DNA of 32,552 nt. Origin: Dehalococcoidia bacterium (lineage in GTDB: Bacteria > Chloroflexota > Dehalococcoidia > GIF9 > AB-539-J10). The position numbers were made by a program, and so were the translations under genes. This document shows positions 337 through 21,744 of this stretch, piece after piece; the first letter of the stretch is position 1, and each line of letters begins with the position of its first letter. The stretch is taken from the NCBI GenBank assembly GCA_030606165.1, contig JAUWGZ010000004.1:1-32552 (forward strand), in the 5' to 3' direction. The notes beneath the pieces were generated by a model. That model did not search any database and was not told the DNA's origin. It was given only the letters and a program-made list of their open reading frames with translations.

Positions 337-1620
337 TCAATGTCTCACCTTCCTTGGTACTTTGATAAAGGTGAGAAGTATCAGTGCAATGATGGTGCAC
401 ATGCCGCTGACCAGGAAAGCAAGGTTATATGTACCCGTTACATCAAACACATATCCTCCGAGGAACGGCCCAATTGCTCCACCGATTGCTACCCCTAACA
501 TTTGAAAACCAACAATTTCGCCTATCGACTTCAGCTCGAAGATTTCCCCGGCTATCACCGGGAGTTGGGGGACACAACCGCCATAGGCAAACCCAAAGAC
601 TGCGGCAAACAGATAGAGCATCCATATATCTGTCGCCCTGAGGAGCCAGAACATCGCCAGGGCCTGAAGGATTAAACAGATAAAGAGTGTGCGCTTTCCC
701 CCCAGTCTGTCAGACACGGCACCCATGGCCAGCCGGCCGATAATGCTGGAAATGCCAATCACAGACATGAAGCTGGCAGCCACTCCCCAAGGTATGCCGA
801 GGACGGTTGCATGGGGATATATGTACATCATTGTCATTTGGACGCATATAGACCAAAAGATAATTATCGCCAGCAACAGCCAGAATGCTCTGGTACGCGC
901 TGCTTCTTTTAATGAGAATCCTGCGCTTTCTGAAGTAAGGCTGTCCTCTCTTTTTGCTATATTTGAATTCTCCTCATCACCCGCTGTCGCTTCAGCCTTA
1001 CCCAGTGGCAGCAGCCCTTTCTCATCAGGACTACGCCTTAGCAGAAATGCCCCAGGGATAATGATAATCAAGGCCAGGAGACCGATGATAATATAGGACA
1101 AGCGCCACCCATACGTAGCGACGAGATGTGCGGCTAACGGAGACATGACCGCTGTGCCCGCCCCTATTCCGGCAGCAACGATACCTATTGCCAGACCCCG
1201 CTTGGACACGAACCACCTTGACACTGTTGCCATTAAAGGAGCATAGGCCACACTTAGGCCGAACCCTCCCATTAGACCGTAGAATAAATATAATTGCCAG
1301 GCAGTGCTGCTTTGGCTGGTCAATATGAGGCCCAGACCCAGGAAAAGGCCACTGATGGCGACTATTATTCTGGGTCCGTGCCTATCGGTGATTCGTCCGG
1401 TGAGGATGGCCAGGGCGCCACGCGAAAACATGAAAAGTGAAGCAGCTCCTCCTACCAATGCTCCACTCCAGCCAAAATCTGCTTTTAGAGGATCGATGAA
1501 TATGCCGAAGGAGTATTGGATCCCATATGCGACCAGAGCCACGCAGAAGGCTGCGGCCACCACTACCCAGCCATAGAAAAAGCGTGAAGCTTTCGCCTGG
1601 TCAACTCCGCCAGATTTCAT
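337..1620 (-). CDS. MFS transporter, OFA/monocarboxylate type
   Basis: This 427-residue protein has the size and about twelve hydrophobic helices of a major facilitator superfamily permease. Helix 1 begins with FFYGWVVVAAAF, and PLKADFGWSGALVGGAASLF follows helix 1. The loop after helix 2 carries the MFS signature region (GRITDRHGPRI), and a matching GRLAMGAVSDRLGGKRT appears after helix 8. A polar central loop at about residues 205-235 separates the two six-helix halves. The FGW-plus-GWVVV pattern is typical of the oxalate/formate antiporter (OFA) and monocarboxylate groups, so a small carboxylate is the likely substrate. It is the last gene of the long operon, 9 bases after the AMP-ligase gene. 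It may import the acid that the ligase activates or export the pathway product. The family call is firm; the substrate is inferred. Confidence 0.85.
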   Translation of the reverse strand: MKSGGVDQAKASRFFYGWVVVAAAFCVALVAYGIQYSFGIFIDPLKADFGWSGALVGGAASLFMFSRGALAILTGRITDRHGPRIIVAISGLFLGLGLILTSQSSTAWQLYLFYGLMGGFGLSVAYAPLMATVSRWFVSKRGLAIGIVAAGIGAGTAVMSPLAAHLVATYGWRLSYIIIGLLALIIIIPGAFLLRRSPDEKGLLPLGKAEATAGDEENSNIAKREDSLTSESAGFSLKEAARTRAFWLLLAIIIFWSICVQMTMMYIYPHATVLGIPWGVAASFMSVIGISSIIGRLAMGAVSDRLGGKRTLFICLILQALAMFWLLRATDIWMLYLFAAVFGFAYGGCVPQLPVIAGEIFELKSIGEIVGFQMLGVAIGGAIGPFLGGYVFDVTGTYNLAFLVSGMCTIIALILLTFIKVPRKVRH

Positions 1621-1629: not shown

Positions 1630-3012
1630 CTAGCGCATATCTTTTATCAATTTTTTGGCTCGAGTGCTTTTTCGCAATGAGCCCGGGGTTACCAGTTGTA
1701 TCTCAGGTATGGTCATTTTTCCCATTTTGACATTTTTTTGAACCGGCGGGATTTTTAATATCACTTTCCTTACCAGTTCTTCGACCGCTGCTCCTTTTCT
1801 GGCTATCTCCACCTGAAAAGTCAGACTATCTTTGACGCCATCATTGCCGATGCTCACTTCATAACCAACGATGTCGGGAATCGTATAAAGTGCCTCGTCA
1901 AACATCGCTGGATATATCTCATCACCCTCTCCTATTTTTACTGCTGACTCCAGCCTTCGTGTTGTCCTGTCCAATTTCTTGAGAGTGGTTATGCCACACT
2001 CACAGGGTTTAACACTCAGTCTGGATATATCGTGCGTTCTGTATCTGATTAACGGCATTGCTTCTCTAGTTAAGGTGGTAAAGACTAATTCTCCTTCCTC
2101 CCCGTCAGGCAAAACCTCCCCGGTTTCTGGGTCTATAATCTCGGCCAGAAGGTCAGCCTCGTTAAAGTGGTAGCCATTATGGGCTGGGCACTCCACAGCT
2201 ACCCCTAATCCCATCTCAGTTAACCCGTAGTGGGTGAAGACTTCACAGTTCCACGCAGACTGGAGGTTAACCCTCATCGAGTCAGATAGATAGTTGGAAG
2301 TAAGGTATAGGGCTTTGACCCCCATTTTTGTTAAATCACGATTGTTTTTAGCTTCCACCGTAATTCGATTAAAACGGAGTGTCTCACAGAACACAACAGT
2401 TGAGCCATGTCTCTCAATCGCCTGAATTTGCTCCTCAGGGGTTGGCTCAGTACCAGTGATGACTGGCGTAGCGCCCATTTTCTCTACACCTCGTGCCAGC
2501 AGGTCAGACTGCCCTAAAACCGGACCCCTTGGCAGCATTATCTGAACGACATCATTGCTGGTAGCCACCACGCTCATGCCAGCCCCCATAAAATCGGTCA
2601 TTACCTCAACATCCTTTTCACTAAAAAAAATCCTCTTCTGCGGGCCAGTAGTACCTGAGCTAGTAAAGGTAATCACCCGGCTCACCTCTCCTAGGGGAAC
2701 ACATAAGAATCTAAGGGGTTTCTCGGCCAATTCCTCGGGCGCAGTTAAAGGTAGCTTGGCCAAATCAGCCAGTGATTGGACTTCACCCGGCTCTATCCCC
2801 TTTTTGCTGAATAGTTCTCGGTAAAACAGGCTCTTGTTATAAACATAGTGCAGTGTATTCTGAAGCTGGAAAAGCTGAAAATCCTCAAAATCGCCTCTGG
2901 TTATTTTCTCCAGGCTTTCCTTAGCAATATGTTTTCGGTATTCCGGAGTCTCCCTTATCCTTTGTTTAAGTATCTTGCTGAGTGACTCCTGTAGGGAAAT
3001 CCGCTCTGCCAT
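1630..3012 (-). CDS. AMP-dependent CoA ligase, phenylacetate-CoA ligase-like (DVU_1553-type)
   Basis: This 460-residue protein belongs to the ANL adenylate-forming superfamily, closest in layout to PaaK (about 430-460 residues). It has the P-loop-like ATP motif TFTSSGTTGPQKRIFF (115-130), HYGLTEMG near the middle (the family's Y-x-x-T-E motif), the DGEEGELVFTTL segment and IRYRTHDIS (the R-Y-x-T-x-D motif). A C-terminal ACT-like lid follows. The family forms an acyl-AMP from a carboxylate and ATP, then an acyl-CoA or other thioester. Aryl or acyl specificity cannot be read from sequence. It sits 16 bases after a radical-SAM gene. I recall an AMP ligase, a methyltransferase, a redox mini-protein and a TrsS-like radical-SAM protein co-occurring in Desulfovibrio (the DVU_1553 to DVU_1557 families). 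This is from memory and not checked here. Confidence 0.85.
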   Translation of the reverse strand: MAERISLQESLSKILKQRIRETPEYRKHIAKESLEKITRGDFEDFQLFQLQNTLHYVYNKSLFYRELFSKKGIEPGEVQSLADLAKLPLTAPEELAEKPLRFLCVPLGEVSRVITFTSSGTTGPQKRIFFSEKDVEVMTDFMGAGMSVVATSNDVVQIMLPRGPVLGQSDLLARGVEKMGATPVITGTEPTPEEQIQAIERHGSTVVFCETLRFNRITVEAKNNRDLTKMGVKALYLTSNYLSDSMRVNLQSAWNCEVFTHYGLTEMGLGVAVECPAHNGYHFNEADLLAEIIDPETGEVLPDGEEGELVFTTLTREAMPLIRYRTHDISRLSVKPCECGITTLKKLDRTTRRLESAVKIGEGDEIYPAMFDEALYTIPDIVGYEVSIGNDGVKDSLTFQVEIARKGAAVEELVRKVILKIPPVQKNVKMGKMTIPEIQLVTPGSLRKSTRAKKLIKDMR

Positions 3013-3028: not shown

Positions 3029-4381
3029 CTATGCTATTCCCGGGTAAAGCTGCTGCCCGTCGACACTGGTCAAGTATTTGGCGCATAAAGGTACCATCTT
3101 CCCTGTAGAAGTAACGATATGAATACAGCATCTCTTCAGTCTTTCAAGGTCGATATTCCACACATCTTGAAAGGCCATGCCTGAAATGTATAAATACTTC
3201 CTTTGAAGGTGCTGGAAAAAACTATAAAAGGGAGTCGGCTCATATTGAGACGTTGGGTAGAGTTGTACATCATCTTCCTCAACAAATCTCCAATATCGCT
3301 TGGCAAATCGTCTTGAATGTTCAGCCCCGTCTTCAGTGATTTGTCTCGGTTGCAAGTGGGTGGTTGATAATAACCTCCCATCGTCCATCAATATGAAGAA
3401 GCCTGAAAAAGAGCAGTGAGGATGCTCACAGACAGGAGGTACAAAGTTGCTCTCCTTCAACTCTCCCTGTGTTTGTTCCTCAAGAGCCCTAAGTATATCT
3501 GGTATAGTTAGCCTATCCCTGTCATCGGGTGTTCCTGGGTATCTACCAAAGTAACTGATTGGCTGGAAGAAAACTCCTTTTACCGTGGGCACCCATCTCT
3601 TGGCAAACCGGATGATGTCTCCTATTTGCTCAAAATTAACATTGGGGATGACTGTTGGCACTAGGGTAACTCCTATCTTCACCTCAGCGCAATTCTTTAT
3701 GGCTTGGACTTTGAGGTCAAAGAGATTTGCGCCTCGGGTATAACGATATACTTCATCAGTTACACCATCAAACTGAAGATAGATGGTGGTAGCCCCCGCC
3801 TCCTTTAATCTACTCAGATATTCCTTGTCTTCAGCCAATCTGATGCCATTCGTATTTATTTGGATATGATTAAAGCCCATCTCCTTACCGATAGCAATAA
3901 CTTGAGGCAGGTCATCCCGGACAGTTGGTTCCCCGCCACACAGTTCCATAGGATATGTCCCGCAAGTATCCAACACGACTTGGTACATCCTTTTAATGCT
4001 GTCCAGGGAAGGCTCATAGACAGGCCCTTCGTCGCCATAGGTAAAACAAATAGGACAGTGAAGGTTACACCTATTGGTAGTCATAATAGCTGCGGAAGAG
4101 GTGTCTTGTACATGGTCTGGACAAATACCACAGTCGTAGGGGCAACCCCTATTATGCTCGGTAAGCCTTTTCTTGGGACCTTTAGGAATTCTATCACCAC
4201 CAAACTCAGCCCATTTAAGGTAATGTTCAGCGTCATTCCTCCAAATGATAACTTTATAATCGCCGTGTTGGGGGCAACTTTTCTCCAGATAAACCTTGTT
4301 ATTTTCAGTGATTATCCTCGCTGGTATCCTGCTCAGGCAAACTGGACATAGGCTCTCTGTTTCTTTCAGTATCTCTTTCAT
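3029..4381 (-). CDS. trsS: Radical-SAM protein of the Tes/MJ0619/TrsS type, copy 1
   Basis: This 450-residue enzyme has several metal sites. An N-terminal rubredoxin- or zinc-like site is formed by C12-x2-C15 and C36-P-x-H39. An extra CX3CX2C motif lies at C80/C84/C87 (GCPYDCGICPDH). The AdoMet-cluster motif is C105/C109/C112 (CNLHCPICF), followed by the GGEPTVRDD AdoMet-binding strand and INTNGIR. More cysteines occur near the C-terminus (CEHPHCSF, LKRCC, PLCAKY). Two CX3CX2C motifs are a hallmark of tetraether synthase (Tes) and the methanopterin methylase MJ0619, which bind several [4Fe-4S] clusters and act on unactivated carbons. The N-terminal signature CPVCLSRIPA matches my memory of the bacterial 'radical SAM (seleno)protein TrsS' family. 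No in-frame UGA replaces a cysteine. A close paralogue lies immediately upstream. Substrate unknown. Confidence 0.85.
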   Translation of the reverse strand: MKEILKETESLCPVCLSRIPARIITENNKVYLEKSCPQHGDYKVIIWRNDAEHYLKWAEFGGDRIPKGPKKRLTEHNRGCPYDCGICPDHVQDTSSAAIMTTNRCNLHCPICFTYGDEGPVYEPSLDSIKRMYQVVLDTCGTYPMELCGGEPTVRDDLPQVIAIGKEMGFNHIQINTNGIRLAEDKEYLSRLKEAGATTIYLQFDGVTDEVYRYTRGANLFDLKVQAIKNCAEVKIGVTLVPTVIPNVNFEQIGDIIRFAKRWVPTVKGVFFQPISYFGRYPGTPDDRDRLTIPDILRALEEQTQGELKESNFVPPVCEHPHCSFSGFFILMDDGRLLSTTHLQPRQITEDGAEHSRRFAKRYWRFVEEDDVQLYPTSQYEPTPFYSFFQHLQRKYLYISGMAFQDVWNIDLERLKRCCIHIVTSTGKMVPLCAKYLTSVDGQQLYPGIA

Positions 4382-4408
4382 CCAATTACCATTATCCGGA
4401 TGAATTCC

Positions 4409-5809
4409 CTAATCTGTGAGAGACAGTGCAGTTTCTGTGGGAAGGTTCTGGTATAGCCTTTCCCCAGTAATACTGGTGACATAAAAGGCACATAGGGGTA
4501 TTAATCGCTTACTGTTGGTGACTACATGGACACAGCATCTCTTTAGCCTTTGTAAATCGAGGGTCCATACATCCTGGAAGGGCATGCCAGTAATCGTCAG
4601 GTAGTACAGGCCTTCTCTTTTTCTGAAACGTAGCCAAGAGTCTTGATTTTGTCCACAGCCCTGACCACACCCTTTCTCAGCTTGTTCTGCCTCTTCATTA
4701 ACCAATCTCCAGCGTCTATTGATAAACCTTCTCGCTGCTACCGCAGGGGGGTCTTTCTTATAGCCGAATCCGCTTACCGATTCCCGGGCGATGTCTGTCC
4801 TTGCTTGTAATTTACCATCTTCCATCAATACAAAAAAACTACTAAACGAACAATGCGAGTCCTCACATCTGCGAGGCACAAAATTCGCTTTCTTAAGTTC
4901 GCCCCTGGTCTGGACTACTAGCCCATCCAGAACATCTGATAAGGTTACCCTATCTTCGTCTTTCGGTGACTGGGGATATCTGCCAAAATAGCTAACCGGT
5001 TGGAAATGGATACCCTTCACCGTAGGTATCCATTTTTTAGCAAATTGGACAACCTCGCCTAACTGGTGAAGATTAACATTGGGGACCACTGTTGGCACCA
5101 AGACGACCCCTATCTTCACCTCAGCGCAATTACTTATGGCTCGAACCTTGAGGTCAAATAGGTTTCTACCTCGGATGGTACGATAAACGTCGTCGGATAC
5201 GCCATCGAACTGGAGATATATCAAGTCAGCACCACTCTCTTTTAGCCTCATAAGATATTCCTTATCTTGAGCTATTCTGATGCCATTGGTATTTATCTGA
5301 ATATGATAAAACCCCAATTTCTTTCCTAGCGCTACAATGGTGGGCAGGTCATCCCTGATGGTAGGTTCTCCACCACTTATTTGCACCGGGTAAGGTCCTC
5401 CAGCTTCTATGATGGTTTGATACATTCCTTGAATTGCATGGCTATCCGGTTCGAAGTGGAGACCTTCGTTGCCAGAAGCAAAGCAGATGGGACAATTGAG
5501 GTTACAGTTGTGGGTGACTTCCATTACAGTGGTGCAGGTATCTGCCTCGTGGCTGGGACATAGACCACAATCATAAGGACAGCCTCGAGCAATATCAGTA
5601 AACCTTTTTTCGGGACCAACAGCCTGCTGGCTGTACTGACTCCAATTACGGTAAAGCTCAGCATTTCGCCAAATCAGAGCCTTGAAGTTACCGTGCTCAG
5701 GACAATCTTTTTCCAGATAGACATCTCCCCCCTCCACTACCCTTTTGGCTGGTATCCGGCTTAAGCAAACCGGGCACAGGCTCTCTGTCTTAGTTAGCAC
5801 CTCCTTCAT
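4409..5809 (-). CDS. trsS: Radical-SAM protein of the Tes/MJ0619/TrsS type, copy 2
   Basis: This 466-residue tandem paralogue of the next gene (27-base gap) has the same architecture: C12-x2-C15 with C36-P-x-H39, an auxiliary CX3CX2C at C77/C81/C84 (GCPYDCGLCPSH), and the AdoMet motif at C102/C106/C109 (CNLNCPICF). GGEPTIRDD, QINTNGIRIA, the DVYR-x-I/T-RG region and the C-terminal FQDVW...LKRCC...PLCA block follow. It differs in an inserted segment near residues 380-400 carrying CGQGCGQ, which adds a cysteine pair that copy 1 lacks, and in C92 just before the AdoMet motif. Divergence after duplication suggests two successive radical steps or a heteromeric enzyme. The 86-base gap upstream of it is the widest inside the operon and could hold an internal promoter, although I saw no strong one. 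Substrate unknown. Confidence 0.85.
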   Translation of the reverse strand: MKEVLTKTESLCPVCLSRIPAKRVVEGGDVYLEKDCPEHGNFKALIWRNAELYRNWSQYSQQAVGPEKRFTDIARGCPYDCGLCPSHEADTCTTVMEVTHNCNLNCPICFASGNEGLHFEPDSHAIQGMYQTIIEAGGPYPVQISGGEPTIRDDLPTIVALGKKLGFYHIQINTNGIRIAQDKEYLMRLKESGADLIYLQFDGVSDDVYRTIRGRNLFDLKVRAISNCAEVKIGVVLVPTVVPNVNLHQLGEVVQFAKKWIPTVKGIHFQPVSYFGRYPQSPKDEDRVTLSDVLDGLVVQTRGELKKANFVPRRCEDSHCSFSSFFVLMEDGKLQARTDIARESVSGFGYKKDPPAVAARRFINRRWRLVNEEAEQAEKGCGQGCGQNQDSWLRFRKREGLYYLTITGMPFQDVWTLDLQRLKRCCVHVVTNSKRLIPLCAFYVTSITGERLYQNLPTETALSLTD

Positions 5810-5895: not shown

Positions 5896-6663
5896 CTATG
5901 GCTTGGTCAGAGCTATCAAAGCATACCCAAGCTCCGCTTCCTTAGAAAACCTTTGACAGGTCTCAATAAGTGAATCAACATCTAATATCTCTTTACTACC
6001 GCAGTCGGACTGTGCTGATGGGTTAGCAAACAACTTAACCCAAGAACCAGAGGTATAAGCTATCCACCAGCCTGTCCTTTTCACTTCCTGTGGGTAGTCT
6101 TCAATGTAGGAATTTTGAAAGCCCACTTGTTCAAAGAGCCTGATATATCCCTCCAAGTGTCTTGTTCTGGCTAAACAAGGAAGGAAAGATACTTGGCTCT
6201 GGAGTTCCTTTTTTATTTCCTTTCGAAGTACAAAGTCTAGTATCAATAATTTCCCACCAGACCTTAAGACACGCCTGAACTCTTTAGCAGCCCTTTCTTT
6301 ATCTACAATAGTGGAGAAGACAGCTTCACATATTATGGTATCAAATATAGAATCTGGAAATGGTAAATTCGCTGCGTCTGCCACCAAAAACTTCACGTTG
6401 TAAGCTAACTTCTCAGCTTCGGCTTGTCTTGCCGCTAAAGCAATCATCCTTTCCGATGAATCGATGCCAACGACATTGCAGCCATATTCTTGAGATAAAA
6501 AGACGGCTGCAACTCCACTGCCACAGCCGACCTCTAAAAGCGTATGGGTGTCGCTAAGTCCAGCAATTCTTACTGCGTCAGCAATAAGTTTAAGTCTACT
6601 GGGACGCATTCCAAAAACTTGGGTAAGTGACATTAGCTTGGAATCGTCTAACTCCGACTTCAT
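5896..6663 (-). CDS. trsM: Class I SAM-dependent methyltransferase (DVU_1556/TrsM-like)
   Basis: This 255-residue Rossmann-fold methyltransferase shows motif I at LLEVGCGSGVAAVF (about residues 42-55), an acidic ribose-binding residue in VVGIDSSERM, motif II/III as VKFLVADAANLPFPD, and RVLRSGGKLLILDFVLR after the catalytic core, as in ubiquinone/menaquinone C-methyltransferase relatives. A C-terminal half with CLARTRHLEGYIRLFEQVGF and EDYPQEVKRTGWW resembles what I recall of the DVU_1556 family, often named TrsM next to TrsS radical-SAM genes. It probably methylates a small molecule or a pathway intermediate. It lies between a four-cysteine mini-protein and the radical-SAM pair, so action in the same pathway is likely. 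The fold is certain; the family name is from memory. Confidence 0.8.
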   Translation of the reverse strand: MKSELDDSKLMSLTQVFGMRPSRLKLIADAVRIAGLSDTHTLLEVGCGSGVAAVFLSQEYGCNVVGIDSSERMIALAARQAEAEKLAYNVKFLVADAANLPFPDSIFDTIICEAVFSTIVDKERAAKEFRRVLRSGGKLLILDFVLRKEIKKELQSQVSFLPCLARTRHLEGYIRLFEQVGFQNSYIEDYPQEVKRTGWWIAYTSGSWVKLFANPSAQSDCGSKEILDVDSLIETCQRFSKEAELGYALIALTKP

Positions 6664-6893: not shown

Positions 6894-7157
6894 CTACTCC
6901 TTGCCTATCTTCGACCTATGTGAATAAGCCGTATGGATTATATAGCCCTTTTCATCAGTAGAATATTCGACGTAGATTGTCACCTCGCCAAGCCTGCTTT
7001 TAGCCAGGTATCTGTTTGCCTCCGGCTGGTATAGCTTCTCACCCTCGGTCTCGGCAAAGTCTATTACCCTCTTTACCTCCTCCTCTGATATATGCCTTTC
7101 CTCCAGCAGTTTCTTTACCTCATCGCTCACCTGCAGCTTTATCTCTTCCCAAGACAT
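6894..7157 (-). CDS. Conserved-looking 87-aa protein of unknown function
   Basis: I do not recognise a confident family. The sequence has an amphipathic helical first half (DEVKKLLEERHISEEEVKRV), then a beta-rich second half (RYLAKSRLGEVTIYVEYS, GYIIHTAYSHRSKI). A helix pair followed by strands ending in H-T-A-Y-S-H-R recalls the small DUF4258/RelE-like fold, but no toxin catalytic set can be defended. It is acidic and soluble, without cysteines or signal peptide. It lies 16 bases after the HdrBC-fusion gene and 4 bases before the four-cysteine mini-protein, inside the operon. It may be an accessory subunit linking the electron-transfer part with the biosynthetic part. Confidence 0.65.
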   Translation of the reverse strand: MSWEEIKLQVSDEVKKLLEERHISEEEVKRVIDFAETEGEKLYQPEANRYLAKSRLGEVTIYVEYSTDEKGYIIHTAYSHRSKIGKE

Positions 7158-7173: not shown

Positions 7174-8340
7174 TTAAGATGTTTTTAATCTTTCCGTCAA
7201 TAATGATTTAAGGAGTGATTGGTTCTCTCTTCTTACCGCTACTTTATTGATAGGTTTGGCTTTATCCTTTTCCCAATTAGGGTTAAACATGAGGTCAAGA
7301 ATGTGCGAAGTGGGCTTGTGCATAGCGAAAGTCTCACGGCAAGCAGCACAGTAGGTGAGCATGTCAAAATGAGACTCAGCTATTCTTGATTTCGTTAAGC
7401 TAAACACCAGGAAAGGATTAAGCCCAACAATTAACCCCCCTTGTCCACAGCAGCGGGTTAATTCCCTGGAATATCTCATCTCTTCTATCTGATAGCCCAT
7501 AAGAGCTACCAAATCTCTAACGCTATCCTGTAATCCCTTTTCCCATCTCGTTTTGCAAGAATCGTGAAGAGTGAAAGTTTGACCGCTCCCTTTAGGCACC
7601 TCAGGGATACCTGTTTCTGCCATCACCTCATATAAACTTCTTAGTTGATAGCGAGGTGCCACTCGCTTAATGGTGTCATAGCATTCGGGGCAGCCAGTAA
7701 TTAGCTCGGATGCTCCTAATTTGTGCACCTCGTTCTCCAACTCCTGTGATATCTTTTGGAACTGGGAGTACAGTCCCAGGTCATAGGAAAGAGCCCCACA
7801 GCATCTCAGGATAATTCCTGTGCCTGGCAGCTTCGCTCTAAGATAGTCCCAGGTAGCGATAACAACGGAAGGAGAATATGCAGACAAGTTACAGCCAGGG
7901 AAGAAGACCCTTTTACATTCAGTGCTATCAGGGTCGGGAAGAGACAGGGTGAAAGAGGGGGTGGTGACGAATTCCTGCTCCTCTTCCATAAATTTATGTT
8001 TAGGAAGTGGACCTATCCCATCCTCTACCAATTGCTCGCGAAGTGCTAAACACAGATCACCGATATTCAGTCCATAAGGGCAAGTCTCTTGACATAACCC
8101 ACAAAGGTTGCATAGATAGGGAATTTCAGGGTTTTCCTTGAAGTAGTCTTTTGCTCCCAGCAAGACCATATGACATATCTTTCGGGGATTAAATCTCTTA
8201 TCAATCTCTCTAACGGAGCAGCCAGCACTGCATGTTCCACACCCCAGGCAATGCTTTAAATTTTCTCCCCCAACTTGCGCTATAATCTTGTCCCTAAATT
8301 TGAAATCTAATTGGTTTACCAGTATTGGACTCAATTTCAA
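7174..8340 (-). CDS. HdrC-HdrB fusion-type Fe-S/CCG oxidoreductase
   Basis: This 388-residue protein joins an HdrC-like N-terminus with two [4Fe-4S] motifs (C31/C34/C37/C41 in CLGCGTCSAGC; C77/C80/C83/C87 in CNLCGLCQETCP) to an HdrB-like part. The latter has two CCG domains: FPGCN...RCCGALSYD...GCPECYDT, and HDSCK...RCCGQGG...YCAACRETF. In heterodisulfide reductase, HdrC passes electrons to HdrB, whose CCG cysteines hold two non-cubane [4Fe-4S] clusters that reduce a disulfide. Here both are on one chain, as in GlpC and many HdrD-like proteins. It follows flxA by 30 bases, so it is the expected terminal acceptor module of the Flx-Hdr complex. The physiological disulfide or other acceptor is unknown; its place next to radical-SAM genes suggests it may supply their reductant. 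Confidence 0.85.
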   Translation of the reverse strand: MKLSPILVNQLDFKFRDKIIAQVGGENLKHCLGCGTCSAGCSVREIDKRFNPRKICHMVLLGAKDYFKENPEIPYLCNLCGLCQETCPYGLNIGDLCLALREQLVEDGIGPLPKHKFMEEEQEFVTTPSFTLSLPDPDSTECKRVFFPGCNLSAYSPSVVIATWDYLRAKLPGTGIILRCCGALSYDLGLYSQFQKISQELENEVHKLGASELITGCPECYDTIKRVAPRYQLRSLYEVMAETGIPEVPKGSGQTFTLHDSCKTRWEKGLQDSVRDLVALMGYQIEEMRYSRELTRCCGQGGLIVGLNPFLVFSLTKSRIAESHFDMLTYCAACRETFAMHKPTSHILDLMFNPNWEKDKAKPINKVAVRRENQSLLKSLLTERLKTS

Positions 8341-8370: not shown

Positions 8371-9210
8371 TTAGTACTCGCTGGGTAACTCATTTAACTG
8401 GGCTAAGGTAAATATGGGACCGTCTTTACAAACATACTGGTTTCCTATGTTGCACCTTCCACACATTCCTATCCCGCATTTCATTTTCATCTCCAGCGAC
8501 AGGACAATCCTTTCCGGTGGAAAACCAAGGTCCCTGAGAACTGGCAGGGTAAACTTTATCATGATTGGTGGTCCGCAGACCACAGCATAGGCATTCTCCG
8601 GGCTAGGAGCAATCTCCTTGACAATATTGGGGACGACTCCCACCTTTCTTTGCCAATCCTCCTCTGCCCTATCAACAGTAAGATGTAGGTCAAGGTCAGT
8701 CCTTACTTCCCACTTCTCAAGTTCATCTCTATAAAGCAACAAGCCGGGGCTTCTGGCCCCATAGATTACTACAACATTGCCGAAGCGGCTTCTATTCTCC
8801 TGGTATAAAATGTAGTTGGTAAGCGAGCGTAAGGTAGTAAAGGCAAAACCACCCCCGATAATAATCGTATCCTTGCTTTCAAGCGCCTCTATTGGGAAAC
8901 AATTTCCGAGGGGACCTCTTACCCCGATTATTTCCCCTTCTTCCAGGTTGTGGAGTGCTGTGGTTAACACCCCCGCCTTGTTGACGGTAAATTGAAGCTC
9001 CCCTGGCTCTGTTGGAGACGAGGCTATTCCGAAGGGCGCTTCCCCTTCGCCTAGAACAGATAGCTGGGCAAACTGACCTGGCAGATAGTTGAAATTAGCT
9101 GCATCCTCATCATTGAGGAACTTGACGCTGAACGTCTTTATATTCTTGTCCTCGGTTTCGATGACAATCTTTTCTACCCTCATCGGTAATGGTAAATATG
9201 GGTTCTTCAT
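8371..9210 (-). CDS. flxA: FlxA-like NAD(P)H:flavin oxidoreductase subunit
   Basis: This 279-residue protein belongs to the ferredoxin-NADP reductase superfamily, of the HydG/AsrB/PyrK branch. The FAD-binding barrel lies at about residues 10-105 (YLPGQFAQLSV; GIASSP in place of the usual R-x-Y-S), and the NAD-binding domain begins at TIIIGGGFAFTTLRS (115-129). A C-terminal [2Fe-2S] site is formed by C245/C250/C253/C261 (KCGIGMCGRCN). In the FlxABCD-HdrABC complexes of anaerobes, FlxA oxidises NADH and feeds electrons through FlxB, FlxC and FlxD to HdrA. The order HdrA, FlxD, FlxC, FlxB, FlxA seen here matches that arrangement. Soluble and cytoplasmic. Confidence 0.85.
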   Translation of the reverse strand: MKNPYLPLPMRVEKIVIETEDKNIKTFSVKFLNDEDAANFNYLPGQFAQLSVLGEGEAPFGIASSPTEPGELQFTVNKAGVLTTALHNLEEGEIIGVRGPLGNCFPIEALESKDTIIIGGGFAFTTLRSLTNYILYQENRSRFGNVVVIYGARSPGLLLYRDELEKWEVRTDLDLHLTVDRAEEDWQRKVGVVPNIVKEIAPSPENAYAVVCGPPIMIKFTLPVLRDLGFPPERIVLSLEMKMKCGIGMCGRCNIGNQYVCKDGPIFTLAQLNELPSEY

Positions 9211-9224: not shown

Positions 9225-10250
9225 CTAACGATTTAATATGCTATTTAGTACTACCTGAATATCCAGATTCACGGGACACTCTTTAATGCACCGGCCACAC
9301 CCCACGCAGGCTGCCATACCATGATTAGCTACGAAATAGTTAAACTTGTGCATTATCCTTTGCCTGAGTCTTTCCTTGCTGCTGGGTCTGGGATTAACTC
9401 CTGAGGCCTGCAGGGTGAAATTGGGAAAGGCACAAGAATCCCAGGTACGAACCCTTTCCCCCCTTTGGCCTGTAACCTCATCAGTTATATCGAAGCAATA
9501 GCAGGTGGGACAAAGATAAGTACAAACGGCACAACCGAGGCATTTCTCAGACACCAGGTCCCAGAAGGGGTCATCAAACATACTATCCAATTTCTCCGTT
9601 ACCTTCTGCACCTCTATCTTGGATTTTATCAAAGCTTCTGCTGTCTCTATGGTGTCTCGCATTAAAGACAAACTATTGTCTTCTGCTTCCTTGAATTCGT
9701 TATGTTTTTTTGCAAGCTTCTTGCCCTTCTCAGTAACTACCTGAACGATATACTTCTGACCGATATCTACCAGAATCAGGTCTGAGCCGTCCTGGGAAAA
9801 AGGGCCCCCTCCGAGGGATGTGCAAAAACAGGTGCTGCTTGGCTGGTTACAACCTATGGCAATAATGGTTGTGTTTTTTCTCTTACCTGAGTAGTACGGG
9901 TCTTTATATAGTTGCCCATCAAATACATTATCCAGAAGGACGAGACTTCTGGCATCACAAGGGCGGATGCCGAAGATTATCCTTTGCTTCTTTTCCGATG
10001 CAGGTTCCTCTACACTCCAACCTTCTCCTTTACTCAAATCATAGCTGAACAATCTTTCTGACTGAGGGAAAAATATCTCCTTGGGAGGTTTCTTGGAGTT
10101 AATATAATCGAGGAACGCCTCGCTACCTGAGTGAATTTCTTGGAATGTAATAAAGCCGTTTTGCCCTACTGGAGCAAATACCTTATACTCCTTGATTAAG
10201 GTGTTCAGGAGACTAACTACCTCAGTTTTAGCAATTTCCAATTCTTTCAT
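9225..10250 (-). CDS. flxB: FlxB-like 4Fe-4S dicluster subunit (HydB/AsrA-like)
   Basis: This 341-residue protein resembles sulfhydrogenase beta and anaerobic sulfite reductase A subunits. An N-terminal domain carries FGIRPCDARSLVLLD and a cysteine pair in CNQPSSTCFCTSLGG. Two C-terminal [4Fe-4S] motifs follow: CLGCAVCTYLCPTCYCFDI and CVGCGRCIKECPVNLDI. It should relay electrons between the flavin of FlxA and FlxC/FlxD. The gene is separated from flxA by 14 bases and from flxC by 26 bases. Soluble, no signal peptide. The alternative name AsrA is unlikely, because no siroheme sulfite reductase subunit is nearby. Confidence 0.85.
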   Translation of the reverse strand: MKELEIAKTEVVSLLNTLIKEYKVFAPVGQNGFITFQEIHSGSEAFLDYINSKKPPKEIFFPQSERLFSYDLSKGEGWSVEEPASEKKQRIIFGIRPCDARSLVLLDNVFDGQLYKDPYYSGKRKNTTIIAIGCNQPSSTCFCTSLGGGPFSQDGSDLILVDIGQKYIVQVVTEKGKKLAKKHNEFKEAEDNSLSLMRDTIETAEALIKSKIEVQKVTEKLDSMFDDPFWDLVSEKCLGCAVCTYLCPTCYCFDITDEVTGQRGERVRTWDSCAFPNFTLQASGVNPRPSSKERLRQRIMHKFNYFVANHGMAACVGCGRCIKECPVNLDIQVVLNSILNR

Positions 10251-10276: not shown

Positions 10277-11230
10277 TTACACCATCATGAATTCTTGAGG
10301 GTCATCTGGATTAAAGGTTGCCAGGGGCGGCATGTCCTCAAGACTTATTCCGGCTTCGTAATGAAATAGGTCTTTAACATCCATTTCCATCTTTTTGGTA
10401 AGCCTTCTAAGGTCAATCCCCATCGGACAGGCTCTGTCACAGCTACCACAATCAACACAACGCCCGGCAATGTGGAAGGCGCGAACGATATGAAAGATCG
10501 CGGTATCGCTGAGGTTAGTGGTCTTTCCAATCCATTGAGGCTGGGAGCTATCTACAAAGCACTCCTGGCAATAGCAGAAAGGGCAGGCATTTCTGCAGGC
10601 ATAGCATCTAATACATTTACTAACTTCATCGCTGAAACTCCGCCATCTCTCATCGTGAGATTGAGCTTCAAACTCCTTCACCTCTCTATATTCATCAACT
10701 GCTTGGTCTTCCACCACCTTGTCTCCTATCAGGACATCGTAGATTACTGGATTCCTGTGGGTACAGGTCTTGCAGGAGTTATGAAGAAATTCCTCTTTTT
10801 TGATAATCTCCCTGAGGTTGTTACCTGTAAGGATAATCGTGTCATCCTTCTCCTCGGCTTCTATTATTTCCTTCCCGTCCAGTTTGGCTTCTATCTTTCT
10901 TCTATCAATCATCCCTTTACAGGGAATACCGATGATAAATACTTGTTCTCTGGTAACCTGATTTTCCTTGATGAGGCCGATGATTGAGCGGACATCGCAG
11001 CCTTTGGCAACAATGGCAACCCTCTCTTTTGTCTTCGGTAGATACTTGGCGAGATTATTCTCACAATTTACATTCCAGATAAGCCTGTCTGCTTCCGAGG
11101 TGCTCCTGACAAAACAAGGAGTGCTCCGCAGAGGGACGCTGCCTTTTTCAAATCCAATTATGAGGTCAACCCTCTTCTCGTCAAGCAGTTTCTTGGCTAT
11201 ATCTCTTATGGCAACGGATGTATTCAACAT
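10277..11230 (-). CDS. flxC: FlxC-like 4Fe-4S dicluster subunit
   Basis: This 317-residue protein has an N-terminal part (KGCDVRSIIGLIKENQ, GIPCKGMI) resembling F420-hydrogenase beta/FrhB-like and HydB-type domains, a central cysteine pair SCKTCTHR, and two C-terminal [4Fe-4S] motifs: CIRCYACRNACPFCYCQECF and CVDCGSCDRACPMGIDL. It fits FlxC of Flx-Hdr clusters, an iron-sulfur relay. It lies 9 bases after flxD and 26 before flxB, so co-translation is likely. The FrhB resemblance alone could suggest an F420-linked enzyme, but no F420-specific partner gene is present. Confidence 0.8.
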   Translation of the reverse strand: MLNTSVAIRDIAKKLLDEKRVDLIIGFEKGSVPLRSTPCFVRSTSEADRLIWNVNCENNLAKYLPKTKERVAIVAKGCDVRSIIGLIKENQVTREQVFIIGIPCKGMIDRRKIEAKLDGKEIIEAEEKDDTIILTGNNLREIIKKEEFLHNSCKTCTHRNPVIYDVLIGDKVVEDQAVDEYREVKEFEAQSHDERWRSFSDEVSKCIRCYACRNACPFCYCQECFVDSSQPQWIGKTTNLSDTAIFHIVRAFHIAGRCVDCGSCDRACPMGIDLRRLTKKMEMDVKDLFHYEAGISLEDMPPLATFNPDDPQEFMMV

Positions 11231-11239: not shown

Positions 11240-11710
11240 TTAACCCTGTTTTCGAACCAATCTCGTTGCTGGTCCCAAGGTCCTTACATCTTCGGTAACC
11301 TTTTGGACAAGCTCGGCAAACCTTTTCCCTTCAGCTGCAGATATCCAGGCAAATTGCACTCGCCCTTTCTCAATACCTAAATATTCAAGAAAATTATTTA
11401 GAATAGCGAACTTTCTTCTAGCTACGTAGTTACCGCTGATATAATGACAATCGCCAGGGTGACACCCTGAAACAAGAACACCGTCAGCCCCATGCTGCAG
11501 GCATCTTAGAATTAGTAACGGGCTGATCCTGCCTGAACAGGGAACACGGATAATCCGGGTATTGGGAGGGTATTGAAGGCGGCTTACCCCGGCCAAGTCT
11601 GCCCCGGCATAACTACACCAGTTACAAAGAAATGCGATTATCTTGGGTTCCCATTCGTCTACTTTTTCCCTAGGTTGTTGGATTTGATTTTCCATTATGT
11701 TGAGTTCCAT
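11240..11710 (-). CDS. flxD: FlxD/MvhD-like iron-sulfur electron-transfer subunit
   Basis: This 156-residue protein is a standard MvhD/FlxD. The motifs are IIAFLCNWCSYAGADLAG near the N-terminus, IIRVPCSGRISPLLIL, GADGVLVSGCHPGDCHY, and the R-x-K-FAILNNFLEYLGIE helix. The cysteines hold a [2Fe-2S] cluster that links an electron-input module to HdrA. In methanogens that module is the [NiFe] hydrogenase MvhAG; here the following genes are FlxC, FlxB and FlxA, so NADH is the expected donor. It lies 21 bases after the HdrA fusion gene. High certainty on family and role. Confidence 0.9.
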   Translation of the reverse strand: MELNIMENQIQQPREKVDEWEPKIIAFLCNWCSYAGADLAGVSRLQYPPNTRIIRVPCSGRISPLLILRCLQHGADGVLVSGCHPGDCHYISGNYVARRKFAILNNFLEYLGIEKGRVQFAWISAAEGKRFAELVQKVTEDVRTLGPATRLVRKQG

Positions 11711-11731: not shown

Positions 11732-14700
11732 CTAAGAGGCATCAATCGCAGCCAAAATCTGAGTATCGCTAAATCCCTTTATGTTTATAGCACCACATAT
11801 ACAGGAGGAAACACATGCTCCACATCCCTTGCATAGAGCCTCATTAATCACCGCTACCTTCTCCTCATCATCAATCTCTATTGCCTGGAAGGGACAGATC
11901 AATTGGCAAACACCGCAACCACTGCACTTGTTCTTATTGACAAACGAGACTAATCCGCCTACTTCAATTACGTCTTTAGATAAGATAGTACCAGCCCGGG
12001 ATGCAGCAGCCTTAGCCTGGGCAATACTTTCATCAGTAAACTTGGGGCTATGAGCGAGACCACACATAAACACACCTTCGGTAGCGAAGTCCACAGGGCG
12101 TAGTTTCACATGGGCTTCTAACAAAAAGCCATCCTCGTTTAATGGCACTTTGAATAATTGGGACAGTCTTTTGTTGTCGGCGGCAGGAATAGTAGCCACT
12201 CCCAGGGCCAGTATGTCCGTATCTATGATTAAATCCTCACCGGATAGTGGGTCTTTCGCGGTAACCCTCAGCAGATTCTGATTGTCTTCTGTTACAGTTT
12301 CTACCCTGGGCTTATCATCTACTTCATAACGAACGAATATCACCCCACGCTCCCTGGCTTCGCGGTAGTAATCTTCCTTAAATCCGTAAGTTCTCATATC
12401 CCGATAGAGGATAAAGACATTCATCTCAGGGTTCACATTTTTTAGTTTCAAGGCACATTTTATCGACTCACTGCAGCACACCCTGCTGCAATAGGGTCGT
12501 CCATCTTCTCTGGAACCCACGCATTGAATGACCACCAGGTTATTACAGCTCGTAATCCTACCGTTGCCTTTAGCGATCTCACCCTCTAATTCCAGTAAGG
12601 TCATCACCCTGGGGTCTTTGCCATAAAGGTATTCACTAGGTTTATGCTCCTCGCCACCACTGGCAATAATGACTACTCCATGCTTGAGTTCGTGGGAATC
12701 CTGGTTAGGACCAACCGCTATCTTGGTGGTGAAATTCCCTACATAGCCGGTGGCTTCAACGATATCCGAATTGGTATACACTTGGATTAAGCGATTTTCA
12801 GAAACCCTGGTGATAAGGTCTCGAAGATAGGTCTGGACATCGTTACCCTCAAGAGTATGTTGTATTCTTCTGGCTATTCCACCCAGTTGGTCGCTTTTCT
12901 CAACCAGGTAGACCTCAAATCCCTGTTCAGCCAGGTTCAAGGCAGCCACCATCCCAGCTATTCCACCGCCAATGACCAGGCCACTATGAATTACCTCCAG
13001 AGGCGTCTGCTCGACAGGCTGGAGCAGCCTGGCTTTGGCTATTGCCATACTTACTAACTCCTTAGCTTTCTCAGTAGCTTCCACCGGATACTCTTTATGC
13101 ACCCAAGAGCATTGGTCTCGAATGTTAGCCATCTCAAATAAATATCTGCTTAACCCTGCCTCCCTAATTGTCTCTTGAAATAGAGGTTCGTGGGTCCGGG
13201 GAGTACAAGAAGCAACTACCACTCGATTGAGGTTATGCTCTCTAATCTTCTCCTTTATCCTTTCTTGGGTATCCTCGGAGCAGGAGTATAGATTGTCCTC
13301 GGCATAGACTACGTTAGGAAGTAAACTCACATACTCTTTAACCTGGGGTACATCCACTACTCCACCAATATTGATGCCACAGTGGCAAATAAAAACACCA
13401 ATCCTCGGTGGCTCTCCCTTTATATCTCTTTCTGGGGGGTATTCCTTTCTTTTTATCAAGCTATTACGCACTGGGGAAAGAGAAGCAGCGGCAGAAGCTG
13501 CGGCGGCACTCGCCTGCGTCACCGTCTCAGGAATGTCCTTGGGACCCTGGAAAGCTCCGCAAATGAATATGTCTGGCTTAGAGCTCTCAACTGGAGAAAA
13601 ATTGTCAGTTTGGCAAAATCCATATTTATTAAGCTCAATACCCAGTATATTCGCCAGCTTCTCAGCTTCTTTGGGTGGCTCAAGCCCAACTGAGAGAACG
13701 ACCAGGTCAAACTCCTCCTTTATTAGCTTGCCATCCTCAGTTTCATACTTTATTGTCAGATTCTTTGTCTCTGCTATCTCCTCTATTACTGATGGCCTGC
13801 ACCTGATAAACCTCACCCCGTATTCGGTCATGGCCCTGTCATAATAGGCCTCAAACCCTTTGCCGAAAGTCCGTATATCTATAAAGAAGATAGTAGCCTC
13901 AACCGAATCATTATGTTCCTTAGCTACTACTGCTTCTTTGATAGCGTAGGTACAGCAGACTGAGGAGCAATAGCCACGCTCTGGAGCCGTTCCTCGTGAG
14001 CCGACGCATTGAATCCAGGCAATCTTTTGTGCCTTTTGCCTGTCAGAAGGTCTTAGTAACTCACCCTCATACGGTCCAGAGGCACTTAGAATCCGCTCAA
14101 ACTCAATACTAGTGATGACATTGGGGAAATTACCATACCCGTATTGCGAGACAGGGCGAGGATCAAATTCATTAAAGCCGGGGCATGCGACAATAGACCC
14201 TACCTTCAGCTCAATTAACTGATCGGTCTGCGTGAAATCAATAGCGTCCGCTTCGCAGAATTCTTCGCAGATTTTGCATTTCCCGGTAGCAAAATGAACA
14301 CATTTGTCACGATCCACTGTGGCAACATTAGGAATTGCCTGAGGAAATGGAATATAGATAGGAGCTCTTGAGTCCAAACCCATCTCAAATTCAGAGAGGA
14401 TCGGGATTGGCTTCTTCGGTGTAATATCTTCGAGCTTGATTGCCCCCGTAGGACAAACGAAAGCACAAGCCCCGCATGCTATGCAAGCATCAAAGTCTAC
14501 GTCCAGGGTTCCTTGAAAAGGAGTTTGTACTTTACGCTCAACCCCCCGGCCAACAAAATTGATCGCGCTTACTCCAATCCTTTCTTCGCAAACTCGGGCA
14601 CACAAGCCGCAGAGAATGCAGAGGTTTTCTGGGTCTTTTATTTTGAACCTCGTTTTTTCAACACCATATTCTTTAGCTAAATCCTGAATTACCTTAGCCT

Positions 14701-14998
14701 GGGGGGCACGAGCAAGCATAAGCTCAATGAGCATCTTGCGGTCTCTTATCACAGTGTCACTCTTGGTCTTAACTACCAGTCCCTCTTCCACAGGGTAAAC
14801 GCAGGAAGTGACTATCCTCGACCTCCGCCCTCGAAAAATCTCCACGATGCAAAGCCGACAACCTCCATAGGGAGTCAGAGCCCGATGATAGCAAAGTGTA
14901 GGTATATTAATACCAACACTTCTAGCTGCCTCTAGTATTGTCGTCCCTTCCTTAGCCCTGACTTCCTTGCCGTCAATCTCTAAAGTTATTTCAGCCAT
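11732..14998 (-). CDS. hdrA: Giant NuoG-like/HdrA fusion flavoprotein lacking the first HdrA Rossmann segment
   Basis: This 1088-residue multidomain protein starts with a NuoG-like [2Fe-2S] domain (C36/C47/C50/C66) and ferredoxin motifs at C127-C137 (CILCGLCARVC) and C172-C182 (CIACGACAFVCP). HdrA sequence starts near residue 205 at the GLDSRAPIYIPFPQA block and continues through CKICEEFCEADAIDF, IQCVGSR...YCSSVCC and GPKDIPETVTQASAAAA. A second HdrA-like unit follows: RIGVFICHCGINIGG (about 532-546), CTPRTHEPLFQE, the FAD motif VIGGGIAGMVAALNLA (675-690) and IQCVGSR...YCSRVCC. Two C-terminal ferredoxin motifs end the protein (CSGCGVCQLICP, CKGCGACVSSC). HdrA normally holds the bifurcating FAD. 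The first HdrA unit here lacks its own GxGxxG and DCSMC segment, which is encoded separately at 17374-17814. Confidence 0.9.
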   Translation of the reverse strand: MAEITLEIDGKEVRAKEGTTILEAARSVGINIPTLCYHRALTPYGGCRLCIVEIFRGRRSRIVTSCVYPVEEGLVVKTKSDTVIRDRKMLIELMLARAPQAKVIQDLAKEYGVEKTRFKIKDPENLCILCGLCARVCEERIGVSAINFVGRGVERKVQTPFQGTLDVDFDACIACGACAFVCPTGAIKLEDITPKKPIPILSEFEMGLDSRAPIYIPFPQAIPNVATVDRDKCVHFATGKCKICEEFCEADAIDFTQTDQLIELKVGSIVACPGFNEFDPRPVSQYGYGNFPNVITSIEFERILSASGPYEGELLRPSDRQKAQKIAWIQCVGSRGTAPERGYCSSVCCTYAIKEAVVAKEHNDSVEATIFFIDIRTFGKGFEAYYDRAMTEYGVRFIRCRPSVIEEIAETKNLTIKYETEDGKLIKEEFDLVVLSVGLEPPKEAEKLANILGIELNKYGFCQTDNFSPVESSKPDIFICGAFQGPKDIPETVTQASAAAASAAASLSPVRNSLIKRKEYPPERDIKGEPPRIGVFICHCGINIGGVVDVPQVKEYVSLLPNVVYAEDNLYSCSEDTQERIKEKIREHNLNRVVVASCTPRTHEPLFQETIREAGLSRYLFEMANIRDQCSWVHKEYPVEATEKAKELVSMAIAKARLLQPVEQTPLEVIHSGLVIGGGIAGMVAALNLAEQGFEVYLVEKSDQLGGIARRIQHTLEGNDVQTYLRDLITRVSENRLIQVYTNSDIVEATGYVGNFTTKIAVGPNQDSHELKHGVVIIASGGEEHKPSEYLYGKDPRVMTLLELEGEIAKGNGRITSCNNLVVIQCVGSREDGRPYCSRVCCSESIKCALKLKNVNPEMNVFILYRDMRTYGFKEDYYREARERGVIFVRYEVDDKPRVETVTEDNQNLLRVTAKDPLSGEDLIIDTDILALGVATIPAADNKRLSQLFKVPLNEDGFLLEAHVKLRPVDFATEGVFMCGLAHSPKFTDESIAQAKAAASRAGTILSKDVIEVGGLVSFVNKNKCSGCGVCQLICPFQAIEIDDEEKVAVINEALCKGCGACVSSCICGAINIKGFSDTQILAAIDAS

Positions 14999-16940: not shown

Positions 16941-17393
16941 TTAATCATAGCTTTTTAGTATCTCCTCTGCCTTGGCTGGCATTATCTTGCCATGGTATTC
17001 ACCATCAACTAGCATCACTGGTCCCAAAGCGCAGCAGCCGAGGCAATTGACCCTTTCCAGGGTGAACTTCATGTCCTGGGTTGTCTCCCCAGGGTTTATG
17101 CCAAGAATGTCTCTTATCCTATCCATGACCCTGGGGCCACCCCGTACCTGGCAGGCAGTACCCAAGCAGACGTTTACTAAATGCCTGCCCCTCGGTTCTA
17201 GGCTCATACTCTTATAGAAGCTAGCTACCCGATATATCTGACTTAGCGGAACCTGGAGTCTCTCGTTTATCCGCTGTACAGCTTCCTTCGGAACCCAGTT
17301 CAATTCCCTCTGCACGTCCAGTAGTAACTGGATCAAAACCCCTTCCTCGCCTGCATATTTATCTATGATTTGGTCAATCTTTTCCTGGTCCAT
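16941..17393 (-). CDS. nuoE: NuoE-type 24 kDa [2Fe-2S] subunit
   Basis: This 150-residue protein is a standard NuoE/HydC thioredoxin-like ferredoxin. The helical N-terminus (LIQLLLDVQRELNWVPKEA) is followed by the [2Fe-2S] ligands C76, C81, C117 and C121 (NVCLGTACQVRG, VNCLGCCALGP). It partners NuoF in NADH oxidation. Its start codon overlaps the end of the HdrA N-terminal gene by 20 bases, and it ends 9 bases before nuoF, so the three are probably translationally coupled. Length and ligand spacing are normal for the family. Confidence 0.9.
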   Translation of the reverse strand: MDQEKIDQIIDKYAGEEGVLIQLLLDVQRELNWVPKEAVQRINERLQVPLSQIYRVASFYKSMSLEPRGRHLVNVCLGTACQVRGGPRVMDRIRDILGINPGETTQDMKFTLERVNCLGCCALGPVMLVDGEYHGKIMPAKAEEILKSYD

Positions 17394-17814
17394 TTCCTCT
17401 TTCTTCTTCTTTTACTTGGGGTATATACCTAACCGGGCAATTCTTGGTACAGTCTCCGCAACCAGTACAAAGGGTCTCATCTACAAATCTTGCTCGCTTC
17501 TTTATCAATACACTGAAGTTCCCTGGCTCCCCCTTGACATCTAAAACGTCGGCACAGGTTATGATCTCGATATTGCGATGCCTTCCACACTCCACCAATT
17601 TTGGGGAAAGGATACACATAGAACAATCATTGGTAGGGAAAGTCTTATCCAGTTGAGCCATCACCCCACCAATAGCCGGGGATTGTTCCACTAAATAGAC
17701 ATAGTACCCAGACTCTGCCAGGTCCAGTGCTGTCTGTATGCCACCTATGCCCCCGCCAATAACGAGTACCGCCCCTGTTTTCTGGCTGGTAGCCTGCTGA
17801 ATATTTGATACCAT
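17374..17814 (-). CDS. hdrA: Stand-alone HdrA N-terminal segment (FAD ADP-binding and Fe-S part)
   Basis: The ATG at 17814 is preferred over an upstream start at 17862 because AAAGGAGAGG lies 5 bases before it. The product has 146 residues, far short of HdrA (about 650 or 1000). It contains the Rossmann FAD motif VIGGGIGGIQTALDLAESG (18-36), the HdrA-specific FPTNDCSMCILSPKLVE with C64 and C67, and a [4Fe-4S] motif C116/C119/C122/C126 (CTGCGDCTKNCPV). It then stops after a short charged tail. The missing remainder of HdrA resumes in the giant fusion gene at 11732-14998. It is therefore best read as half of a split HdrA that assembles in trans, not as a decayed gene: reading frame, Shine-Dalgarno and coupling to nuoE are intact. 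Its TGA stop is followed by another in-frame stop four codons on, so selenocysteine read-through is unlikely. Confidence 0.85.
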   Translation of the reverse strand: MVSNIQQATSQKTGAVLVIGGGIGGIQTALDLAESGYYVYLVEQSPAIGGVMAQLDKTFPTNDCSMCILSPKLVECGRHRNIEIITCADVLDVKGEPGNFSVLIKKRARFVDETLCTGCGDCTKNCPVRYIPQVKEEERGNGPGKD

Positions 17815-17837
17815 GATTACCTCTCCTTTACTAAGCA

Positions 17838-17860
17838 GGAGGAGAGACACGCTCTCCTCC
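17838..17860 (-). promoter_or_regulatory. Leader hairpin upstream of the 16-gene operon
   Basis: A perfect 9-base-pair stem, GGAGGAGAG (17838-17846) and CTCTCCTCC (17852-17860), with a five-base loop, lies between the candidate promoter and the ribosome binding site of the first operon gene. No T-run follows, so it is not a standard terminator. It may stabilise the mRNA, or one arm (rich in GGAGG) may compete with the ribosome binding site. Structure seen; function inferred. Confidence 0.45.
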
Positions 17861-17879
17861 ACTTAGAACCCCAGCTATG

Positions 17880-21595: not shown

Positions 21596-21633
21596 CGTAA
21601 TCCTCCTTTCTTTCATATTTAGCAACCTATCAC

Positions 21634-21717: not shown

Positions 21718-21744
21718 CTCACCTCCTTTGTCTATATAGTAGAC

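Follow-up and report, generated by a model that had tools for sequence, protein, structure and literature searches.

In a 32,552-nucleotide stretch of DNA (the window) from an uncultured anaerobic Chloroflexota bacterium (genome G000, contig C94, 81% complete), two adjacent minus-strand genes encode radical S-adenosylmethionine (AdoMet) proteins that are almost certainly both members of the TrsS family (NCBIfam NF045646), with an architecture like that of the tetraether synthase, Tes. Copy 2 lies upstream of copy 1 in the reading direction, the gap is 27 bp and the two proteins share about 56% of their amino acids. An earlier note, made from the sequence alone, had described this pair; its open reading frames and every motif it named were located as follows.

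3029–4381, minus strand: TrsS copy 1, the derived paralogue, 450 aa (NF045646, 563.9 bits; copy-1 clade; AF2 model)
4121–4144, minus strand: copy 1 N-terminal auxiliary CX3CX2C, C80/C84/C87, then H90 (sequence and alignment)
4046–4069, minus strand: copy 1 AdoMet CX3CX2C, C105/C109/C112 (sequence and alignment)
3176–3178, minus strand: copy 1 Met402, counterpart of Tes Met439 (alignment)
4409–5809, minus strand: TrsS copy 2, the canonical copy, 466 aa (NF045646, 584.6 bits; tree; AF2 model)
5558–5581, minus strand: copy 2 N-terminal auxiliary CX3CX2C, C77/C81/C84, then H87 (aligned to C73/C77/C80 and His of Tes, PMC9433317)
5534–5536, minus strand: copy 2 C92, the TrsS-family norm
5483–5506, minus strand: copy 2 AdoMet CX3CX2C, C102/C106/C109 (invariant in the alignment)
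4649–4669, minus strand: copy 2 CGQGCGQ in a variable linker, residues 381–387, with C381 and C385 (sequence)
4583–4585, minus strand: copy 2 Met409, counterpart of Tes Met439, a labile ligand of the cluster (alignment)

Both NF045646 scores exceed the NCBIfam cut-off of 490 bits, and the matches span profile positions 2–440 (copy 1) and 2–441 (copy 2) of 441, whereas the Tes model NF045702 (cut-off 450 bits) was missed by both proteins with 391.3 and 366.9 bits. In an IQ-TREE phylogeny of 75 rows, made up of 50 TrsS and 25 Tes and Tes-like proteins, the TrsS rows split from the others with support of 100/99, and both copies fell inside the TrsS clade.

The predicted structures pointed to the same relative. 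The AF2 models of copy 1 (mean pLDDT 89.7) and copy 2 (86.8) gave Tes as the top fold match (7tol, E = 4.4e-47, and 7tom, E = 1.4e-48, respectively), with a TM of about 0.8 over 482–491 columns and 33–37% identity in the structural alignment; the second-ranked match, MoaA, reached an E of only about 1e-11. Tes (7tol/7tom) was also the only PDB sequence with E < 1e-10 for copy 2.

The Tes-like architecture proposed in the earlier note is thus borne out, with four metal sites at the sequence level and the predicted fold, and so is its suggestion that a bacterial family stands apart from the tetraether pathway of archaea. Profile scores, the tree and one residue (Tyr459, below) assign the proteins to the named family TrsS and not to Tes itself. 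A phylogeny that put both copies into a family whose reaction is known and unrelated, named beforehand as the refuting outcome, was not obtained: they sit firmly in TrsS, which is already named in NCBIfam but for which no reaction or function was found in the literature searched. There it appears once, as one line of a table in a review of selenoproteins (PMC13188914). The same search gave nothing on the function of DVU1553–1558, which are not mentioned in the text of a Desulfovibrio vulgaris mutant-fitness paper.

Selenocysteine occurs in some NF045646 members without being a requirement of the family. Neither window copy has an in-frame TGA; in TrsS of the examined loci TGA was seen at C-terminal ends only, read as normal stops, with none clearly internal, and a search of a further 113 genomes for selenocysteine sites gave no internal stop.

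Metal sites compared with Tes

The joining of two unactivated carbons, which Tes carries out, ranks among the hardest known reactions; what its bacterial homologues do was left open by those who discovered the enzyme (PMC9433317). TrsS forms a coherent sister family with a Tes-like, putatively Met-capped cluster and a recurring operon. The solved enzyme (MJ0619 or GDGT-MAS; PDB 7TOL and 7TOM) was first annotated as a pterin methylase and is the M. jannaschii Tes (PMC9433317), so the likeness to "tetraether synthase and MJ0619" drawn in the earlier note holds as a likeness but counts as one comparison, not two. The fold, the rubredoxin spacing, the N-terminal cluster with its His, the AdoMet motif, the C-terminal cysteines and the position of the labile Met are all common to Tes and TrsS.

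The rubredoxin-like site reads C12-X2-C15-X20-C36-X2-H39 in copy 1 and consists of C12, C15, C36 and H39 in copy 2; the C-X2-C-X20-C-X2-H spacing of both equals that of the C9-X2-C12-X20-C33-X2-H36 motif of Tes (PMC9433317). C-terminal cysteines are C318, C323, C418, C419 and C433 in copy 1 and C315, C320, C425, C426 and C440 in copy 2. Three sets of residues were invariant across 41 aligned homologues: the AdoMet triplet, the N-terminal Cys triplet plus His, and, in copy 2 numbering, C320, C425 and C440. This, together with the shared rubredoxin spacing, argues that the motifs are not chance occurrences.

C320, C425 and C440 align with the C-terminal cluster region of Tes. At that cluster a substrate–sulfur intermediate has been seen; the substrate carbon radical is captured on a cluster sulfide, and a sulfur-bearing product arises at low AdoMet (PMC9433317). 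Judging by their invariance, the three cysteines and the Met would be the ligands of the corresponding cluster in TrsS. The counterpart of Met439 is kept in 50/50 other TrsS and in 4/4 copy-1-clade proteins (here and in the counts below, the rows are related and hence not independent events). Tyr459 behaves differently. It is strictly conserved across 1,000 archaeal Tes (PMC9433317) and kept in all 17 Bathyarchaeal and all three Thermoplasmata Tes-like rows, but its position holds Ile throughout the copy-1 clade (copy 1 included), Val in copy 2, and Val or Ile in 44 of the 50 other TrsS. As far as the alignment goes, the Met-capped cluster is the constant of TrsS and Tyr459 is not, a pattern that is undescribed in the literature we found. 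The TrsS copies further depart from Tes in having Ala or Pro in place of the His after the Met, in the C92 feature, in their separate clade and in their gene neighborhood.

These differences bear on the proposal that TrsS performs the Tes function itself, as a bacterial membrane-spanning lipid synthase joining fatty-acyl tails. Tes being the nearest solved relative, and bacterial Tes homologues having been proposed as enzymes of branched glycerol dialkyl glycerol tetraether (brGDGT) synthesis (PMC8941075), the idea is a natural one. With the Tes cut-off missed, a separate clade, the Tyr459 position mostly Val or Ile, and no lipid-backbone gene among the five core genes of the operon described below, we consider it quite unlikely. 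Grs and Gms are radical SAM lipid enzymes, but by the published descriptions neither has the TrsS architecture: the GDGT ring synthases GrsA/GrsB most likely carry the AdoMet cluster only and the GMGT synthase Gms is a SPASM protein (PMC11186832), whereas auxiliary motifs are present in both TrsS copies.

Chloroflexota also have Tes-like proteins (e.g., L055–L072 and L187), one of which was found in G013, a congener of the window genome. They share the architecture and metal motifs over the N-terminal three quarters but lie in the other half of the tree and have Gln, Arg, Ile or His at the Met position. The same four residues replace the labile Met, with the C-terminal cysteines kept, in the Tes-like subfamilies L055–L072, L180 and L182–L187, which are possibly natural variants of the cluster ligand. 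The Thermoplasmata Tes-like proteins L049, L050 and L053 retain Met and Tyr459 and miss the N-terminal auxiliary cluster cysteines.

The tandem pair and its history

The two genes are a tandem pair of paralogues. Copy 1 falls into a paralogue clade (support 100/99) together with its orthologue in a congener (L039_11428) and the second copies of two Bacillota pairs (L042_11331 and L046_3418). Copy 2 clusters with three further proteins and its own orthologue from the congener (97/87). The order is the same at all four tandem loci, a canonical copy being followed directly by the gene of the copy-1 clade. Since the copy-1 clade spans the window lineage and Bacillota, either the duplication predates the window lineage or there was a transfer of the pair from phylum to phylum. 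Among 60 genomes (the window genome and its relatives), TrsS above the cut-off occurred in only three: the window genome, its congener G015 and, from the same order, G043. A tandem TrsS pair with an ancient asymmetric paralogue is undescribed in the literature we found.

The earlier note regarded C92 and CGQGCGQ as additions in copy 2. Their presence there and absence from copy 1 stand, but the direction is reversed: C92 and a Cys-bearing linker are ancestral and were lost by copy 1. Position 92 is Cys in 50/50 other TrsS; within the copy-1 clade the two Bacillota proteins have this Cys and the two from Dehalococcoidia have Ser. In the linker, which runs from C320 to the Met, 47 of 50 other TrsS, among them copy 2, have one Cys or more; the four linkers of the copy-1 clade have none, none, none and one. 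A Cys-bearing linker is therefore common but variable in TrsS, CGQGCGQ being the form it takes in copy 2, and copy 1 is the derived copy.

The loss of C92 and of the linker cysteines, and the loss of the Cys after the cluster ligand in the Bacillota clade members, might suggest that copy 1 is a decaying duplicate without a role of its own. We find this very improbable, as Met402 and all metal ligands are retained, the pair order is conserved in two phyla, and both copies have a dN/dS of about 0.18 relative to the congener (copy 1, 0.075/0.41; copy 2, 0.087/0.49). Such values indicate purifying selection on both copies and hence that both are kept, which, together with the asymmetric loss of cysteines, fits specialization. 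The pair offers a natural contrast, in which the metal sites are identical and C92 and the Cys-bearing linker are present or absent.

The trs operon and a candidate reaction

Five genes form the core of the trs operon: an HdrCB-like iron–sulfur (dicluster) protein, its small split-off domain, a methyltransferase, TrsS and a PaaK-type coenzyme A (CoA) ligase. Besides the TrsS pair, the window carries:

1630–3012, minus strand: PaaK-type AMP-forming CoA ligase, DVU_1553 family (NF045666, 358.2 bits against a cut-off of 300; PDB phenylacetate-CoA ligase 4r1l, E = 1.5e-49)
5896–6663, minus strand: class I SAM methyltransferase, DVU_1556-like (NF045667, 128.1 bits; cut-off 155)
6894–7157, minus strand: 87-aa protein, the free-standing C-terminal end of NF045663 (matches positions 675–757)
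7174–8340, minus strand: HdrCB-like protein with a Fer4 dicluster and two intact CCG motifs (NF045663 positions 354–665)

NF045667 is the best NCBIfam match of the methyltransferase, which clusters with the methyltransferases of other trs loci. The HdrCB-like protein has an HdrC-like N-terminus (PDB 8rvv_C, E = 7e-12) and two CX(n)CCX(n)CXXC motifs. In a profile census of 51 TrsS loci the methyltransferase was found at 43, the dicluster protein at 42 and the CoA ligase at 39; seven control loci with Tes-like genes gave two, one and none, respectively.

The operon recurs in Desulfobacterota, Bacillota, Chloroflexota and, in part, Bathyarchaeota, in two layouts. On the Desulfobacterota/Bacillota side it comprises a molybdenum aldehyde oxidoreductase (AOR), a long dicluster protein with a flavin half, a DVU_1557 redox protein, the methyltransferase, a C-GCAxxG protein, TrsS and the ligase, and MocA-type genes are frequent. 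The 17 window-side loci are without AOR; their dicluster protein is usually short and accompanied by a small protein encoded separately. Profile positions show the dicluster and 87-aa proteins of the window to be the two C-terminal pieces of the long form. The window locus shares the CoA ligase and dicluster partners and, at a score below the curated cut-off, the methyltransferase with NF045646 TrsS at large but differs from it in the tandem pair with a derived second copy, in the missing AOR, redox and C-GCAxxG partners, in having no selenocysteine, and in a dicluster protein that is split, lacks the flavin half and adjoins an HdrA/FlpD/Nuo block. The joining of a split dicluster protein to an HdrA module is again undescribed in the literature found. 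Identity between congeners is much lower for the methyltransferase (53%) and the dicluster protein (61%) than for TrsS, the ligase and the small protein (83–91%), which suggests that these two genes may have been replaced.

We propose, with belief and doubt about equally balanced, that the operon encodes an anaerobic acyl-CoA pathway in which TrsS forms a bond at an inert carbon through Tes-like radical capture on the C-terminal cluster. The neighboring ligase would activate the substrate or link it as a CoA thioester, so that TrsS would act on such a thioester or on a compound derived from it. The AdoMet cluster would generate the 5'-deoxyadenosyl radical that takes H from an unactivated substrate carbon, and the resulting carbon radical would be trapped, as in Tes, on the Met-capped C-terminal [4Fe-4S] cluster, before a new bond is formed at that carbon. 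The rubredoxin and N-terminal cluster domains may carry the electrons, which would possibly be supplied by the HdrCB-like protein (in the window coupled to the HdrA/FlpD/Nuo module); that protein could be the electron partner of TrsS or could work on a product thiol or disulfide. The methyltransferase would cap or tailor the product. Most likely the two TrsS copies act on related substrates or on consecutive steps, and a copy 1–copy 2 heterodimer is possible.

The pathway is favored by the family, fold and tree, the conserved Met and cysteines of the C-terminal cluster region, the operon census and the dN/dS values, and also by the low-potential or organic-acid modules that occur as operon partners at some loci (HdrA, HGD-D reductase with its activase, TRAP transporter, corrinoid protein with RACo). 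Several points weigh against it. As no published TrsS activity was found, the class of reaction is assigned by homology to a single solved relative, at 33–37% identity, and the ligands of the C-terminal cluster other than the Met439 counterpart are deduced from invariance and not from coordinates. TrsS has a different linker and is without the Tyr459 of Tes, so the pocket and substrate probably differ. Transporter and redox neighbors differ from locus to locus, and some are encoded on the opposite strand; the score of the window methyltransferase is below its curated cut-off; and absences are uncertain because some of the 51 loci are cut by contig ends.

The frequency of the methyltransferase, together with a B12-binding protein and the RACo corrinoid activator near the trs loci L136 and L158, raises the possibility that TrsS is a radical SAM methylase which, with its neighbor, methylates an inert carbon. 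This seems unlikely: very few trs loci have corrinoid genes nearby, and later work did not reproduce the class D methylase activity originally ascribed to MJ0619, whose structure argued against it (PMC9433317). A part for TrsS in making or maturing the adjacent AOR of Desulfobacterota is hardly probable. AOR does stand at 28 of 34 loci on the Desulfobacterota side of the tree, with a MocA-type transferase at 12, but at none of the 17 window-side loci, and no AOR-family match was found in the window genome or in G015 (93% complete). As a general role of TrsS, AOR maturation was rejected for the window lineage on account of this absence.

A different outcome of the radical capture would be a thiol. 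TrsS would put a sulfur of the C-terminal cluster on the inert carbon of a CoA-activated acid, giving a coenzyme B-like thiol that the HdrCB-like protein (with HdrA where present) would cycle between thiol and disulfide; the duplicated copies would then make two thiols or use two chain types. The idea comes from the sulfur-bearing lipid that Tes makes when AdoMet is limiting (PMC9433317) and from the two CCG motifs that are intact in the HdrCB-like protein; we rate it as very unlikely. The partner families of the operon are named after D. vulgaris genes and therefore occur in cultured anaerobes, which turns a question about motifs into pathway genetics open to testing.

Accessory modules and flanking genes

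The genes around the core are the following.

337–1620, minus strand: major facilitator superfamily (MFS) transporter, lactate/oxalate-formate type, next after the ligase and also in the congener (profile match)
8371–9210, minus strand: FAD/NAD-binding subunit, FlxA/HydG-like, accessory and not conserved in other trs loci (profile match)
9225–10250, minus strand: Fer4_22 subunit, HydB/FlxB-like (profile match)
10277–11230, minus strand: Fer4_8 and FrhB_FdhB_C protein (profile match)
11240–11710, minus strand: FlpD/MvhD-like subunit (PF02662, E = 7.9e-55)
11732–14998, minus strand: HdrA-like flavoprotein with a NuoG/hydrogenase-like N-terminus (NF040770, 845.9 bits)
15009–16931, minus strand: NuoF-like subunit (TIGR01959, 459.6 bits)
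16941–17393, minus strand: NuoE-like subunit (profile match)
17374–17862, minus strand: separate HdrA piece (NF040770 positions 125–257)

The HdrA/FlpD/Flx/NuoEF block thus lies upstream of the window dicluster gene. In the same place the congener G015 has a shorter HdrA-like gene and a second CCG protein, and at L140 and L141 HdrA-type genes stand near trs on the strand opposite to TrsS. Other window-side loci have a double-cubane HGD-D reductase with a BcrA/D-type activase (L135, scanned; L156 and L174, by clustering), and L046 an HGD-D reductase by clustering. A TRAP transporter, a B12-binding protein and the RACo corrinoid activator accompany trs at L136, L158 and, partly, L137. Since these modules vary between loci, we take the core to be constant and the modules, for redox or uptake, to be plug-ins.

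A tRNA-Thr gene (cgt; 17964–18035) is found immediately upstream of the Hdr block. The entire trs region of G015 is placed between two tRNA-Thr genes (L188, 8596–8667 and 19320–19391) that are 93% identical. A genomic island at tRNA-Thr was considered and rejected: the site could not be defined, and other congeners with the flanking metallo-hydrolase gene have neither the tRNA nor trs there.

Two proteins of 418 and 295 aa encoded within 20369–22632 matched no NCBIfam family, and the same holds for two large proteins further on (23576–24871 and 24950–26947). The latter two are flanked by two ECF sigma factor genes (22682–27612 in all), and this set is kept in the congener.

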